Of a stretch of DNA of 55,722 bases, positions 16,865 to 21,151 are shown in pieces. The DNA lies in assembly GCA_019694755.1 (NCBI GenBank), contig JAIBBI010000021.1:1-55722 (forward strand), given 5' to 3'. The notes beneath the pieces are model-generated. The model was not told the origin of the DNA, ran no database searches, and saw only the letters and a program-made list of their open reading frames with translations. How positions within the stretch are numbered: the stretch's first letter is position 1; every line of letters starts with the position of its first letter. This DNA is from Gemmataceae bacterium (GTDB lineage: Bacteria > Planctomycetota > Planctomycetia > Gemmatales > Gemmataceae). Both the position numbers and the translations under genes were made by a program.

Positions 16865-17908
16865 ATGAGCGACACGCCGGGGCAGAAATCACCGGGCACG
16901 ATGAGCTACAGCAAATGGAAGTCGCTGAAGCTCCCGCCGGACCGCCGCCGGGTGCTGTCCGGAGTCCAGCCGTCCGGCAAGCTGCACCTCGGCAACTACT
17001 TCGGGGCGATCCGCCAGCACATCGCGTCGCAAGACGAAGATGCCGAGCGGTTCATCTTCATCGCCGACTATCACAGCATGACGACTGTGACCGACGGGGC
17101 CCAGCGTCGTGCCCTGACACTCGACGTCGCGCTGGATTACCTCGCACTCGGCCTCGACCCCGCGAAGACGACGTTCTTCCGTCAGAGCGACGTACCCGAG
17201 GTCCACGAGCTTGCGTGGATGCTCGCCTGCGTGACCAATACCGGGCTCATCGAGAAGGCCCACTCGTTCAAGGACAAGATCGCCAAGGGCATCGAGCCGA
17301 GCGTCGGGTTATTCACGTACCCGATCCTCATGGCATCGGACATCCTCATCTATCGCTCGAACTGGGTGCCGGTGGGCGACGATCAGGTCCAGCACCTCGA
17401 GTTGACCCGCGACATGGCCGGGAAGTTCAACCGGGCGTACGGCGAGGTATTCCCGCTGCCGCAGGCGTTGCTCGTCGAGGCCGGCGCGAAGGTCCCGGGG
17501 ACCGACGGCCAGAAGATGAGCAAAAGCTACGGGAACACCATCGACATCTTCGCCGAGGGCAAGGCGCTGAAGAAATCGGTGATGGGGATTGTCACCGACT
17601 CGACGCCGCTCGAAGGCGCAAAGGACCCGACCACATGTACCATATTCGCCCTGTATCAGCTCTTCGCGACGCAGGACGAGACCGACGCGCTGGCCGCGAT
17701 GTACCGCGCGGGCGGCATGGGCTACGGCACGGCCAAGTCGATGCTGCTGGAAAAGATCGACGAGCGGTTCGGACCGGCGCGGGAGCGGCGGCGCGAGCTG
17801 GCCGGCAACCTCGATTACGTCGAGGGAGTTTTGCGGGCCGGGGCGGCGCGGGCTCGGGCCGAGGCCGAGATCACCATGGGGCTCGCGCGAAAAGCCGCGG
17901 GGTTGTGA
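16865..17908 (+). CDS. trpS: Tryptophan--tRNA ligase
   Basis: A 347-residue class I aminoacyl-tRNA synthetase that charges tRNA-Trp. The first signature is VQPSGKLHLGNYFGAI (HIGH equivalent LHLG) and the second is GQKMSKSYGN (KMSKS). Other TrpS landmarks are IADYHSMTT, YPILMASDILIY and VPVGDDQVQHLELTRD. About 25 residues precede the usual start of TrpS proteins (MSDTPGQKSPGTMSYSKWKS), so an internal start at 16901 is possible. The upstream gap to the divergent unknown gene is 42 nt and must hold both promoters. Confidence 0.97.
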   Translation: MSDTPGQKSPGTMSYSKWKSLKLPPDRRRVLSGVQPSGKLHLGNYFGAIRQHIASQDEDAERFIFIADYHSMTTVTDGAQRRALTLDVALDYLALGLDPAKTTFFRQSDVPEVHELAWMLACVTNTGLIEKAHSFKDKIAKGIEPSVGLFTYPILMASDILIYRSNWVPVGDDQVQHLELTRDMAGKFNRAYGEVFPLPQALLVEAGAKVPGTDGQKMSKSYGNTIDIFAEGKALKKSVMGIVTDSTPLEGAKDPTTCTIFALYQLFATQDETDALAAMYRAGGMGYGTAKSMLLEKIDERFGPARERRRELAGNLDYVEGVLRAGAARARAEAEITMGLARKAAGL

Positions 17909-17932
17909 CTCGATGTACTGGACCGTTAGAAT
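17903..17932 (+). promoter_or_regulatory. Candidate sigma-70 promoter for a leaderless ECF sigma mRNA
   Basis: TTGTGA (17903-17908, overlapping the trpS stop) and TAGAAT (17927-17932) are separated by 18 nt. The ATG of the sigma-factor gene lies 6 nt after the -10 box, so transcription would begin at or beside the start codon. No Shine-Dalgarno sequence is evident before this ATG, in agreement with leaderless initiation. Promoter spacing and boxes are read directly; the leaderless mode is inferred. Confidence 0.5.
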
Positions 17933-17938
17933 GGCCGG

Positions 17939-18535
17939 ATGGAGGCTCCTGACGACCGGACTTCGCTCAGCCTGCTCGACCGCGCGCGGGCCGACGATCC
18001 CGAGGCGTGGCGACGCCTCGTCCACATCTATTCGCCGCTTGTGTACTCCTGGGGCCGGCGGGCGGGACTGAATGCCGACGACACCGCCGACCTGATGCAG
18101 GACGTGTTCCGCTCCGTGGCTGCCAACGTTGGCAAGTTCCGCCGGGATCGCCCCGGCGACACGTTTCGCGGCTGGCTCTGGACCATCGCCCGCAACAAGC
18201 TCAACGACTTCCACCGTCGGGCCTCGACGCAGCCGGTCGCCGTCGGGGGCAGCACCATGCACGGCCGGATTCAGGAAGTGCCCGACCTCGAGCCGGAACC
18301 GTGCGACGACCCCAGCGCGGCCGAGTCGCACGGAGGCGTCCTTCGCAGGGCGTTGGAACTAATCCGGGCCGACTTCGAGGAATCGAGCTGGAAGGCGTTC
18401 TGGCAGACGGCCGTCGAGGGCCGGAATACTGCCGACGTGGCTCGCGAACTCGGCCTGAGCGTCTTTGCCGTATATCAGGCTAAGTACCGGGTGCAACGTA
18501 AGTTGCGTGACGAACTCGGTGATGTGCTCGATTGA
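17939..18535 (+). CDS. ECF-type RNA polymerase sigma factor
   Basis: A 198-residue sigma-70 family protein. Region 2 is seen at about residues 25-95 (LVYSWGRRAGLNADDTADLM, then FRGWLWTIARNKLNDFHRR) and region 4 at about 145-195 (SWKAFWQTAVEGRNTADVAR, then LSVFAVYQAKYRVQRKL). A linker with MHGRIQEVPDLEPE lies between. The sequence type and the neighbour, a Ser/Thr kinase gene overlapping by 4 nt, fit the planctomycete ECF groups that travel with Hanks kinases. It is probably regulated by that kinase, by phosphorylation or by anti-sigma binding. Its promoter region overlaps the trpS stop. Confidence 0.9.
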   Translation: MEAPDDRTSLSLLDRARADDPEAWRRLVHIYSPLVYSWGRRAGLNADDTADLMQDVFRSVAANVGKFRRDRPGDTFRGWLWTIARNKLNDFHRRASTQPVAVGGSTMHGRIQEVPDLEPEPCDDPSAAESHGGVLRRALELIRADFEESSWKAFWQTAVEGRNTADVARELGLSVFAVYQAKYRVQRKLRDELGDVLD

Positions 18536-20631
18536 CCGGTGAAGGCGGCGCGTTCAACCGCGCCGTTTTAGCTCAGAGTTGCTCTGCCTCCGGGACCACT
18601 GCCGTGCCCGCCACACTCACCTGCCCGCCGCCCGATGAACTGATGGCCGCGCTGTTCGGAGCATCGGGCAGCGATCCCGCGGCGATGGAAGCCCATTTCG
18701 AATCGTGCCCTCGTTGTCAGTCGATGATCCAGGGCGCGATGCCGGCCGGCGAATCCATCGCTGACCGACTTCGCACTGTGGCCGCGTCGAATGCCTGCGA
18801 CGATCCGGAGTTTCGTGCGGCTGTCGACCGGGTACTCCGATCGGACCCCCGGCCGGCACAACTCCAGCCCGGCGATACCGTTCGCGAATACCGCCTCGAA
18901 GAACTCCTCGGTGCGGGCGGCATGGGCACGGTATGGAAAGCCCGGCACACCCGCCTCGACATGATCGTCGCGCTCAAGGTGATGGCCCGCCGGCTGCATG
19001 GTGACCCCGCAGCCGAGCAGCGATTCGCCCGGGAAATGAAGGCCGTCGGCCGACTGCGCCATCCCAACATCATTCAGGCCCACGATGCCGGCGAAGCGGA
19101 TGGCCGGCCCTACCTCGCCATGGAGTATGCGCCGGGCAAAGACCTCGCGCAGTACGTCCGCGAGCACGGGCCGTTCACTCCCGAGGCGGCGAGCGGTATC
19201 ATCCGCCAGGCGGCCCTTGGGCTCAATCATGCTCACGAGGCCGGCCTCGTCCACCGCGATGTGAAACCCTCCAATCTGCTGCTCACGTCCGACGGCACGG
19301 TGAAGATCCTCGACCTCGGCCTGGCCCGGCTTGGCGACGACGACACGGTATTGCCACATACCGGCGACTCGACTCGCGACTCGGAGCTCACGGGTGCGAG
19401 CCGGGTGATCGGCACTCGCGACTACATGGCCCCGGAGCAATTCCGCGACGCCCGCGCCGTCGACGCTCGCGCCGATGTTTACTCGCTGGGTTGCACGCTC
19501 ATCTACCTGCTCACAGGTCGGCCGCCCCGCCTCGGCGACGAGTCGGCCGCGCCGCCGGCCGTGGCGAACGTGCTGAAGAAGTGCCTCGCGCCGGACCCGG
19601 CCGACCGCTGGCCCTCGGCCGCCGCGCTGGCCGCCGCGCTCGAAGCTCCGTCCCGGCCGCCGGGCCGGCGGCTTGGCGGTCGGGTTGGAATCGCGATTGC
19701 GATTGCGGTTGCCGTGCTGCCAGCCGGGTGGTGGTGGTTTGGTGGCATTGCAACGGGCGATGGAGAAACGGCCGACGCACCGCGCCCACCACTTTTGGGC
19801 CGGATCCCCATGACCCCGGTCGAGGCCAAGCAACTGCAAGGGCAGTGCGCCCAACTGACCAGCCGGCGCGTCACGATCAAGACGTCGCTGGGGGCGACGT
19901 TCGCACTGATCCCGCCGGGCGAGTTCGGTATGTCCACGGAGTGTCGGGTGACCATCTCCAAGCCGTTCTACATCGGCACGCACGAGGTCACCGTTGGCGA
20001 GTTCAAAGCGTTCGTCGACGCGACGGGCTACAAGACCAAGTGCGAGACCGACGGTAAGGGCGGCTGGCGCATGGACCGCAGCGACTACCACAACATGCAG
20101 CAACAGAGCACGAAGTTTACCTGGCGCACGCCCGGCTACCCGGACGTATCCGACCAGCATCCGGTGACCCAGGTCGGATACAAAGACGCGCTGGCGTTCT
20201 GCGCCTGGCTCAGCGAACGCGACAAGACGACGTACCGCCTGCCGACCGAGGCGGAGTGGCGGTGGGCCTGTCGGGCCGGCTCGGCTGGCGACTATTACTG
20301 GGGCAACGACAAGGTCCACCTCAAAGACCATGCCTGGCACATCCTGACCTCGATGGATCAGCCGCAGCCCGTCGGCATGTTGAAGCCGAACGCCTGGGGG
20401 CTGTTCGATACATTGGGTAATGTCGAGGAATGGTGCCTCGACTGGCACGGCGATTACCCGGACAAGCCGGTCACGGACTACCGCGGCCCCGCGACCGGCA
20501 AAGCCCGCGTCCTGGCCGGCGGATCGCACACGCAGACCCGGATCGACTGTGCGGTCCGCAACCCGGGCGGCAACACGGGCTTCGCCTTCGCCGGCTTCCG
20601 CATCGTCCGCGAACTCGACGATCGGCCGTGA
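18532..20631 (+). CDS. Membrane Ser/Thr protein kinase with N-terminal zinc anti-sigma-like motif and C-terminal SUMF1-like domain
   Basis: Up to 699 residues. Residues about 28-70 carry CPPPDELM and then HFESCPRC (H-x3-C-x2-C), a pattern like the zinc anti-sigma fold. The kinase domain (about 120-370) has GAGGMGTVWKA, VALKVM, VHRDVKPSNLLL, DLGLARLG and APEQ, all catalytic residues kept. One membrane helix follows (GIAIAIAVAVLPAGWWWF, about 383-402). The outer part (about 430-699) is an FGE/SUMF1-like sensor domain (PFYIGTHEVTVGEFKAFVDA, YRLPTEAEWRWACRAG, NVEEWCLDW, FAGFRIVREL); the paired catalytic Cys of true formylglycine-generating enzymes are not seen, so a binding role is more likely. 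The TTG start lies in the sigma stop (TTGA); a GTG at 18604 is an alternative. Confidence 0.9.
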   Translation: MTGEGGAFNRAVLAQSCSASGTTAVPATLTCPPPDELMAALFGASGSDPAAMEAHFESCPRCQSMIQGAMPAGESIADRLRTVAASNACDDPEFRAAVDRVLRSDPRPAQLQPGDTVREYRLEELLGAGGMGTVWKARHTRLDMIVALKVMARRLHGDPAAEQRFAREMKAVGRLRHPNIIQAHDAGEADGRPYLAMEYAPGKDLAQYVREHGPFTPEAASGIIRQAALGLNHAHEAGLVHRDVKPSNLLLTSDGTVKILDLGLARLGDDDTVLPHTGDSTRDSELTGASRVIGTRDYMAPEQFRDARAVDARADVYSLGCTLIYLLTGRPPRLGDESAAPPAVANVLKKCLAPDPADRWPSAAALAAALEAPSRPPGRRLGGRVGIAIAIAVAVLPAGWWWFGGIATGDGETADAPRPPLLGRIPMTPVEAKQLQGQCAQLTSRRVTIKTSLGATFALIPPGEFGMSTECRVTISKPFYIGTHEVTVGEFKAFVDATGYKTKCETDGKGGWRMDRSDYHNMQQQSTKFTWRTPGYPDVSDQHPVTQVGYKDALAFCAWLSERDKTTYRLPTEAEWRWACRAGSAGDYYWGNDKVHLKDHAWHILTSMDQPQPVGMLKPNAWGLFDTLGNVEEWCLDWHGDYPDKPVTDYRGPATGKARVLAGGSHTQTRIDCAVRNPGGNTGFAFAGFRIVRELDDRP

Positions 20632-20668: not shown

Positions 20669-21151
20669 GTGACCATCCGCGAAGCCCATTTTCCCAATGA
20701 TCTTGTTGTGGTCCGCGAGTTGTTCGAGGAGTACGCGGCCGGACTGGGCATCGATCTCTGCTTCCAGGGGTTCCGCGAGGAGTTGGCCGGTCTGCCGGGG
20801 ATGTATTCGCGACCGGCCGGCGGAGTCTGGCTGGCGGAAGTAGACGGCATCGCGGCGGGGTGCATCGCCCTGCGGCCTCGAGGCGAAGATCGGGCGGAGT
20901 TGAAGCGGCTCTACGTTCGACCGGCATTCCGCGGAACCGGCATCGCGCGGGCACTCGCCGAGCGGGCCCTGACGGCCGCCATTGCGATCGGCTACCGCCA
21001 AGCCTGTCTCGACACGCTGCGAACTATGACCGGTGCGATCGCGTTGTACCGCTCGCTTGGGTTTGCGGAAATCGAACCGTATTACCACAACCCGATTCCG
21101 GAAGTCGTATATCTCGGGCGGGAACTCCACGGCACCGCGGCCGGGCTATAA
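20669..21151 (+). CDS. GNAT-family N-acetyltransferase
   Basis: A 160-residue acetyl-CoA-dependent acetyltransferase. The central strand and CoA loop read ELKRLYVRPAFRGTGIARAL (R/Q-x-x-G-x-G/A pattern), followed by a helix and the motif ALYRSLGFAEIEPYY, both usual in GNAT proteins. The length is normal for the family. The start is GTG at 20669, 37 nt after the kinase stop, so it may be read through from the sigma-kinase unit. The substrate is unknown; an amino acid or small amine would be typical. Confidence 0.88.
   Translation: MTIREAHFPNDLVVVRELFEEYAAGLGIDLCFQGFREELAGLPGMYSRPAGGVWLAEVDGIAAGCIALRPRGEDRAELKRLYVRPAFRGTGIARALAERALTAAIAIGYRQACLDTLRTMTGAIALYRSLGFAEIEPYYHNPIPEVVYLGRELHGTAAGL

Follow-up and report, generated by a model that had tools for sequence, protein, structure and literature searches.

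The analysed stretch, 55,722 nucleotides of contig JAIBBI010000021.1 of a Gemmataceae bacterium (hereafter, the window), carries a gene for an extracytoplasmic function (ECF) sigma factor (17939–18535, plus strand, as are the kinase gene with its domains and the promoter match below; 198 aa) followed by a gene for a transmembrane Hanks-type Ser/Thr kinase, and the anti-sigma factor of this kinase-linked sigma appears to be the N-terminus of the kinase itself. The relationship of this N-terminus to the class I zinc anti-sigma factors (ZAS) is supported by sequence comparison. The fusion of a zinc anti-sigma domain to the front of a transmembrane kinase had been proposed in the initial annotation, and profile homology, a fourth putative zinc ligand, a near-exclusive linkage to sigma genes, and an AlphaFold model now argue for it. 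The combination of sigma and ZAS-kinase is a family and not a single locus, with over a dozen pairs in the genome and many in relatives.

The anti-sigma-like domain spans residues 31–104 of the kinase reading frame (18622–18843) and is predicted to be helical. An H-x3-C-x2-C motif noticed earlier near the N-terminus is indeed present (H55-F-E-S-C59-P-R-C62, 18694–18717), and its linkage to sigma genes, described below, is not that of a chance occurrence, but the upstream ligand had been overlooked. This is C31 (18622–18624), with which the putative ligand core becomes C31-x23-H55-x3-C59-x2-C62, as in the ZAS type. Kinases adjoining related sigmas were collected from this genome and from relatives, and their aligned N-termini gave the consensus CPxxxxLxxxxxGxL...HLxxCxxCxxxLxxL...DxLxxxLR. 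Since members were chosen by H-x3-C-x2-C, the invariance of these three residues follows from the selection; the upstream ligand, about 25 residues before the motif, lay outside the selection criterion, and it is Cys in 65 of the 71 relatives, with His standing there in four others (C or H in 69/71). A replacement of Cys by His at this ligand is the swap that leads from RsrA to ChrR. When a 42-member profile of the N-terminus was compared with all PDB chains, the only matches at E < 0.01 were DdvA (3.9e-6), ChrR (1.4e-5, over 94 residues), RslA (1.5e-5), a CHAT protein (6.7e-4), and RsiW (0.0064). Taken singly, the same members matched the NCBIfam models for RsrA (17/42), ChrR (12/42), and antisigma (8/42), the one other match being NuoI at 0.0076, and 26 of the 42 matched Pfam zf-HC2.

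The linkage was quantified in the source assembly (G000, 5.6 Mb, whose contigs bear C numbers here), against which the window kinase as a protein query gave 112 matches. The motif was sought in the 260 residues N-terminal to the kinase domain of 92 kinases, and ECF sigmas related to that of the window were counted as sigmas of this type. Sixteen kinases adjoin such a sigma and 14 of them carry H-x3-C-x2-C, a count that takes in the kinase on C58, whose sigma lies directly downstream; the motif occurs in none of the 76 kinases situated away from such sigmas (Fisher p about 1e-14). Read from the other side, all 14 ZAS-kinases of the genome adjoin a window-type sigma, and 11 of the 76 motif-less kinases adjoin sigmas of other families. 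Of the 38 kinases that adjoin such sigmas in relatives, 33 carry the motif, and it was present at every further locus where the kinase N-terminus is visible (24/24). Of the two exceptions in G000, one is on C168 (L124/L294), where sigma, ZAS, and kinase form a cluster but the ZAS, which immediately precedes the kinase, is read in another frame; this copy is apparently broken. In the second case, a divergent kinase is the additional neighbour of a sigma already paired with a ZAS-kinase.

Some variants were recorded alongside these counts. In L079, the codon that in relatives encodes the first zinc-ligand Cys is a TGA (immediately before position 764 on the reverse strand; MQRAA[TGA]PSHEDL); the gene is probably broken or its sequence in error. 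At L298 (3728–4508, contig C222), a ZAS leads directly into a transmembrane helix and a TPR-like tail; neither a kinase nor a sigma was found in the surrounding 7 kb, and the product is possibly a stand-alone membrane anti-sigma. At L293 (contig C205), a more distantly related ECF sigma has a stand-alone ZAS-like domain as its neighbour, and G000 seems to contain here a sigma/anti-sigma pair of the ordinary kind. Candidate natural single-chain fusions of sigma and kinase in G041, G046, G060, and G086 were discarded, the long frames being upstream extensions of the open reading frames.

In the remainder of the protein, as initially annotated, kinase, membrane anchor, and SUMF1-like domain stand in one polypeptide. 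The kinase domain (residues 120–336, 18889–19539; Pkinase, 5e-49) contains the catalytic Lys and the HRD, DFG-like, and APE motifs (VALKV, HRDVKPSN, DLG, APEQ). The predicted transmembrane helix (residues 385–403, 19684–19740; hydropathy maximum 1.93) is the sole strong hydrophobic stretch between the kinase and FGE-like domains, and a transmembrane-like stretch C-terminal to the kinase was seen in 20 of the 26 ZAS-kinases whose stop codon is in view. The SUMF1/FGE-like domain, presumed to be an extracytoplasmic sensor (residues 472–693, 19945–20610; FGE-sulfatase PF03781, 9e-46), also matches solved FGEs. By eye, its stretch GGSHTQTRIDC holds one Cys, C673, and a Gln apparently stands at what we take to be the place of the first FGE catalytic Cys. 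The sigma factor, whose position beside the kinase was likewise annotated correctly, matches Pfam Sigma70_r2 (2e-11) and NCBIfam sigma70-ECF (5e-17), and its named relatives belong to Planctomycetales, Pirellulales, and similar groups. Its acidic sigma2.2 quartet reads DTAD, so that the DxxD motif is intact and the loss typical of ECF43 is absent; of the sigmas paired with ZAS-kinases, all 71 keep the fourth acidic residue of the quartet and 67 the first.

The domain order, the anti-sigma homology, the C/H-H-C-C ligand set, the near-exclusive linkage, and the intact DxxD were all computed here, and the mechanism that we favour, and that is probably correct, is sequestration of the ECF sigma next door by the ZAS of the membrane kinase, with release upon kinase signalling. 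At rest, the ZAS domain would bind the adjoining sigma, hold it at the membrane, and keep it off RNA polymerase. Engagement of the outer FGE/C-type-lectin-like domain would activate the kinase, and the active kinase would phosphorylate the ZAS domain, the linker, or the bound sigma, whereupon the sigma would be freed. Zinc binding, sigma binding, and inhibition through that binding are what homology and linkage suggest for the ZAS domain; phosphorylation as the release step and the outer domain as the sensor are inferred. The broader proposal, that planctomycetes have a large, hitherto unrecognized class of systems in which one membrane protein is anti-sigma, kinase, and sensor and in which its own kinase relieves the sequestration, stands at about even chances. 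If true, it would account for the way in which kinase-linked ECF sigmas with an intact DxxD are kept inactive.

Class I anti-sigma domains fold as a three-helix bundle with a fourth helix that binds sigma2. In a fold prediction of the kinase N-terminus, a check suggested by the initial annotation, AlphaFold2 modelled residues 25–120 as five helices (pLDDT 78), and the structural matches of this model were all weak, that to RslA being the best. A larger model was built from the relative L248, where the sigma and kinase genes are in frame over one stop codon; the stop was read as Trp as a modelling device, and readthrough is not claimed. This sigma-ZAS chain reached a pTM of 0.73, with pLDDT of 86–93 by block in the ZAS core. 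Its sigma, superposed whole, lies 7.4–8.8 Å (140–144 residues) from RseA- or MucA-bound sigma and 21–26 Å from ECF sigmas bound to RNA polymerase (RNAP). The model depicts a compact sigma; the rmsd values are loose and have no sigma-alone control, and we use it as supporting evidence only.

Several of these results weigh against sequestration by an anti-sigma domain. Foldseek returned no significant match for the isolated ZAS (RslA, E 4.4), and in VIA the best structural match, again RslA, was weak (Z 2.6, rmsd 5.7). The L248 model is made of chains joined through a stop, with only 13 paired rows and the missing control mentioned above. Distances among sigmas and among ZAS domains are only modestly correlated (0.34; partial correlation 0.33 given the kinase distances), and among 12 paralogues of G000 the value is 0.25 (permutation p 0.037). 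The window copy itself scores 19.8 bits against zf-HC2, just below the curated cut-off of 22.2. Finally, the motif is missing from a small number of kinases adjoining such sigmas (L101, L112, and others); in L101 and L112, both from relatives, the N-terminus is of a different, zinc-less kind. Class I anti-sigmas include zinc and zinc-less forms (PMC7406223), and the N-termini of L101 and L112 are compatible with that known mix.

The main rival to the sequestration reading, which we regard as unlikely, is that the ZAS-like domain only docks the sigma to the kinase and that the sigma is activated by phosphorylation, as in EcfP/PknT and EcfK/PknS. ECF43 sigmas are without the acidic DxxD and gain the charge through phosphorylation, and synteny of sigma and kinase is the hallmark of phosphorylation-activated ECFs (PMC8999054, PMC13147305). 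EcfK is phosphorylated also in the sigma2-sigma4 linker, which indicates that such activation does not strictly demand the loss of DxxD, and the window quartet has a Thr inside it. Nearly all the linked sigmas, however, keep DxxD, so that phosphorylation should be unneeded for RNAP binding, and the relatives of the domain are inhibitors, not docking domains. Quartets with Thr or Ser are, moreover, uncommon among ZAS-linked sigmas (11/71), compared with 7 of 17 ZAS-less pairs overall; this comparison, which mixes unrelated sigma families, is only suggestive of two modes of control within the same cell. In G000, ZAS-less kinases lie beside sigmas of other families on C101, C12, C222, C250, C276, and C51, where the sigmas have Ser/Thr quartets (DPSD, GASD, DASD, DSTD, DSND) and are candidates for phosphorylation-activated sigmas.

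Less probable still is a role of the ZAS in sensing redox state or metal in the cytoplasm, as in RsrA, with oxidation expelling the zinc and freeing the sigma and with the kinase as an independent input. The spacing C-x23-H-x3-C-x2-C is an RsrA-type ligand set and members do match the RsrA model, but in some relatives the first Cys is replaced by His, as in ChrR, and a few have no motif, which makes a thiol switch no constant of the family; besides, the authors of PMC7406223 argue that in membrane-bound class I anti-sigmas the zinc frequently has a structural role. It is very improbable that the motif belongs to an unrelated structural zinc finger or arose by chance and that sigma and kinase are ordinary neighbours: the sub-threshold zf-HC2 score of the single sequence speaks for this reading, and against it stand the homology found with the profile, the presence of a fourth ligand, and the statistics of the linkage.

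Regarding the organization of the locus, the kinase frame with a TTG start runs from 18532 to 20631 (699 aa), and the overlap of sigma and kinase genes initially annotated exists only from this start, with 4 nt shared. The overlap is doubtful, since a GTG at 18604–18606 (residue 25 of the frame) is the likelier start judging from the starts of relatives relative to the conserved CP. From this GTG, the kinase begins (M)PATLTCPPPDEL, which agrees with relatives, where CP comes a few residues after the M, and the overlap is replaced by a gap of 68 nt. Overlaps of 4 nt (ATGA) between sigma and kinase are present in paralogues on C160, C44, and C6, which shows that coupling exists in the family. 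Directly 5′ of the sigma gene there is a weak, consensus-only match to a sigma-70-like promoter (17903–17932). A terminator scan between the sigma and kinase genes found none, and the strong hairpin there is no better than in shuffled sequences (z −1.06). By eye, the pair is preceded by a tryptophanyl-tRNA synthetase-like gene (16865–17908) and followed by a GNAT-like acetyltransferase gene (20669–21151), neither with an evident link to it.

The component domains and the pairing of sigmas with kinases in planctomycetes are already known. In a literature search whose scope left out the main 2021 ECF classification paper, no fusion of a ZAS to a Ser/Thr kinase was found described. The kinase-linked ECF groups outside ECF43 keep a DAED-like acidic motif, their mechanism is open, and an anti-sigma is usually lacking (PMC8999054); an anti-sigma-like domain inside the kinase makes this mechanism directly testable, and with it phosphorylation joins the ways in which class I anti-sigmas might release their sigmas. 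When compared to the class I zinc anti-sigmas RsrA, ChrR, RslA, RsiW, and DdvA, the domain shares H-x3-C-x2-C, a C/H ligand some 24–25 residues before the His, a helical make-up (here predicted), and a gene adjoining that of an ECF sigma. The output or sensor differs, being in those proteins a cupin, a short soluble protein, or a protease-cleaved membrane stub, and here a Ser/Thr kinase, a transmembrane helix, and an FGE-like domain. The ECF43 pairs EcfP/PknT and EcfK/PknS likewise combine an ECF sigma gene with that of a transmembrane Hanks-type kinase, but those sigmas are phosphorylation-activated and have neither DxxD nor an anti-sigma factor, whereas here DxxD is retained and the kinase bears an anti-sigma-like domain. 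By neighbourhood, the pair resembles ECF59, ECF61, ECF62, and ECF217, in which a planctomycete ECF sigma lies beside a kinase. Finally, the actinobacterial ECF48, ECF52, and ECF53 (e.g., SCO4117) also place a ZAS in a membrane-anchored multi-domain protein (PMC8999054), but there the ZAS is fused to the sigma itself, without a kinase.
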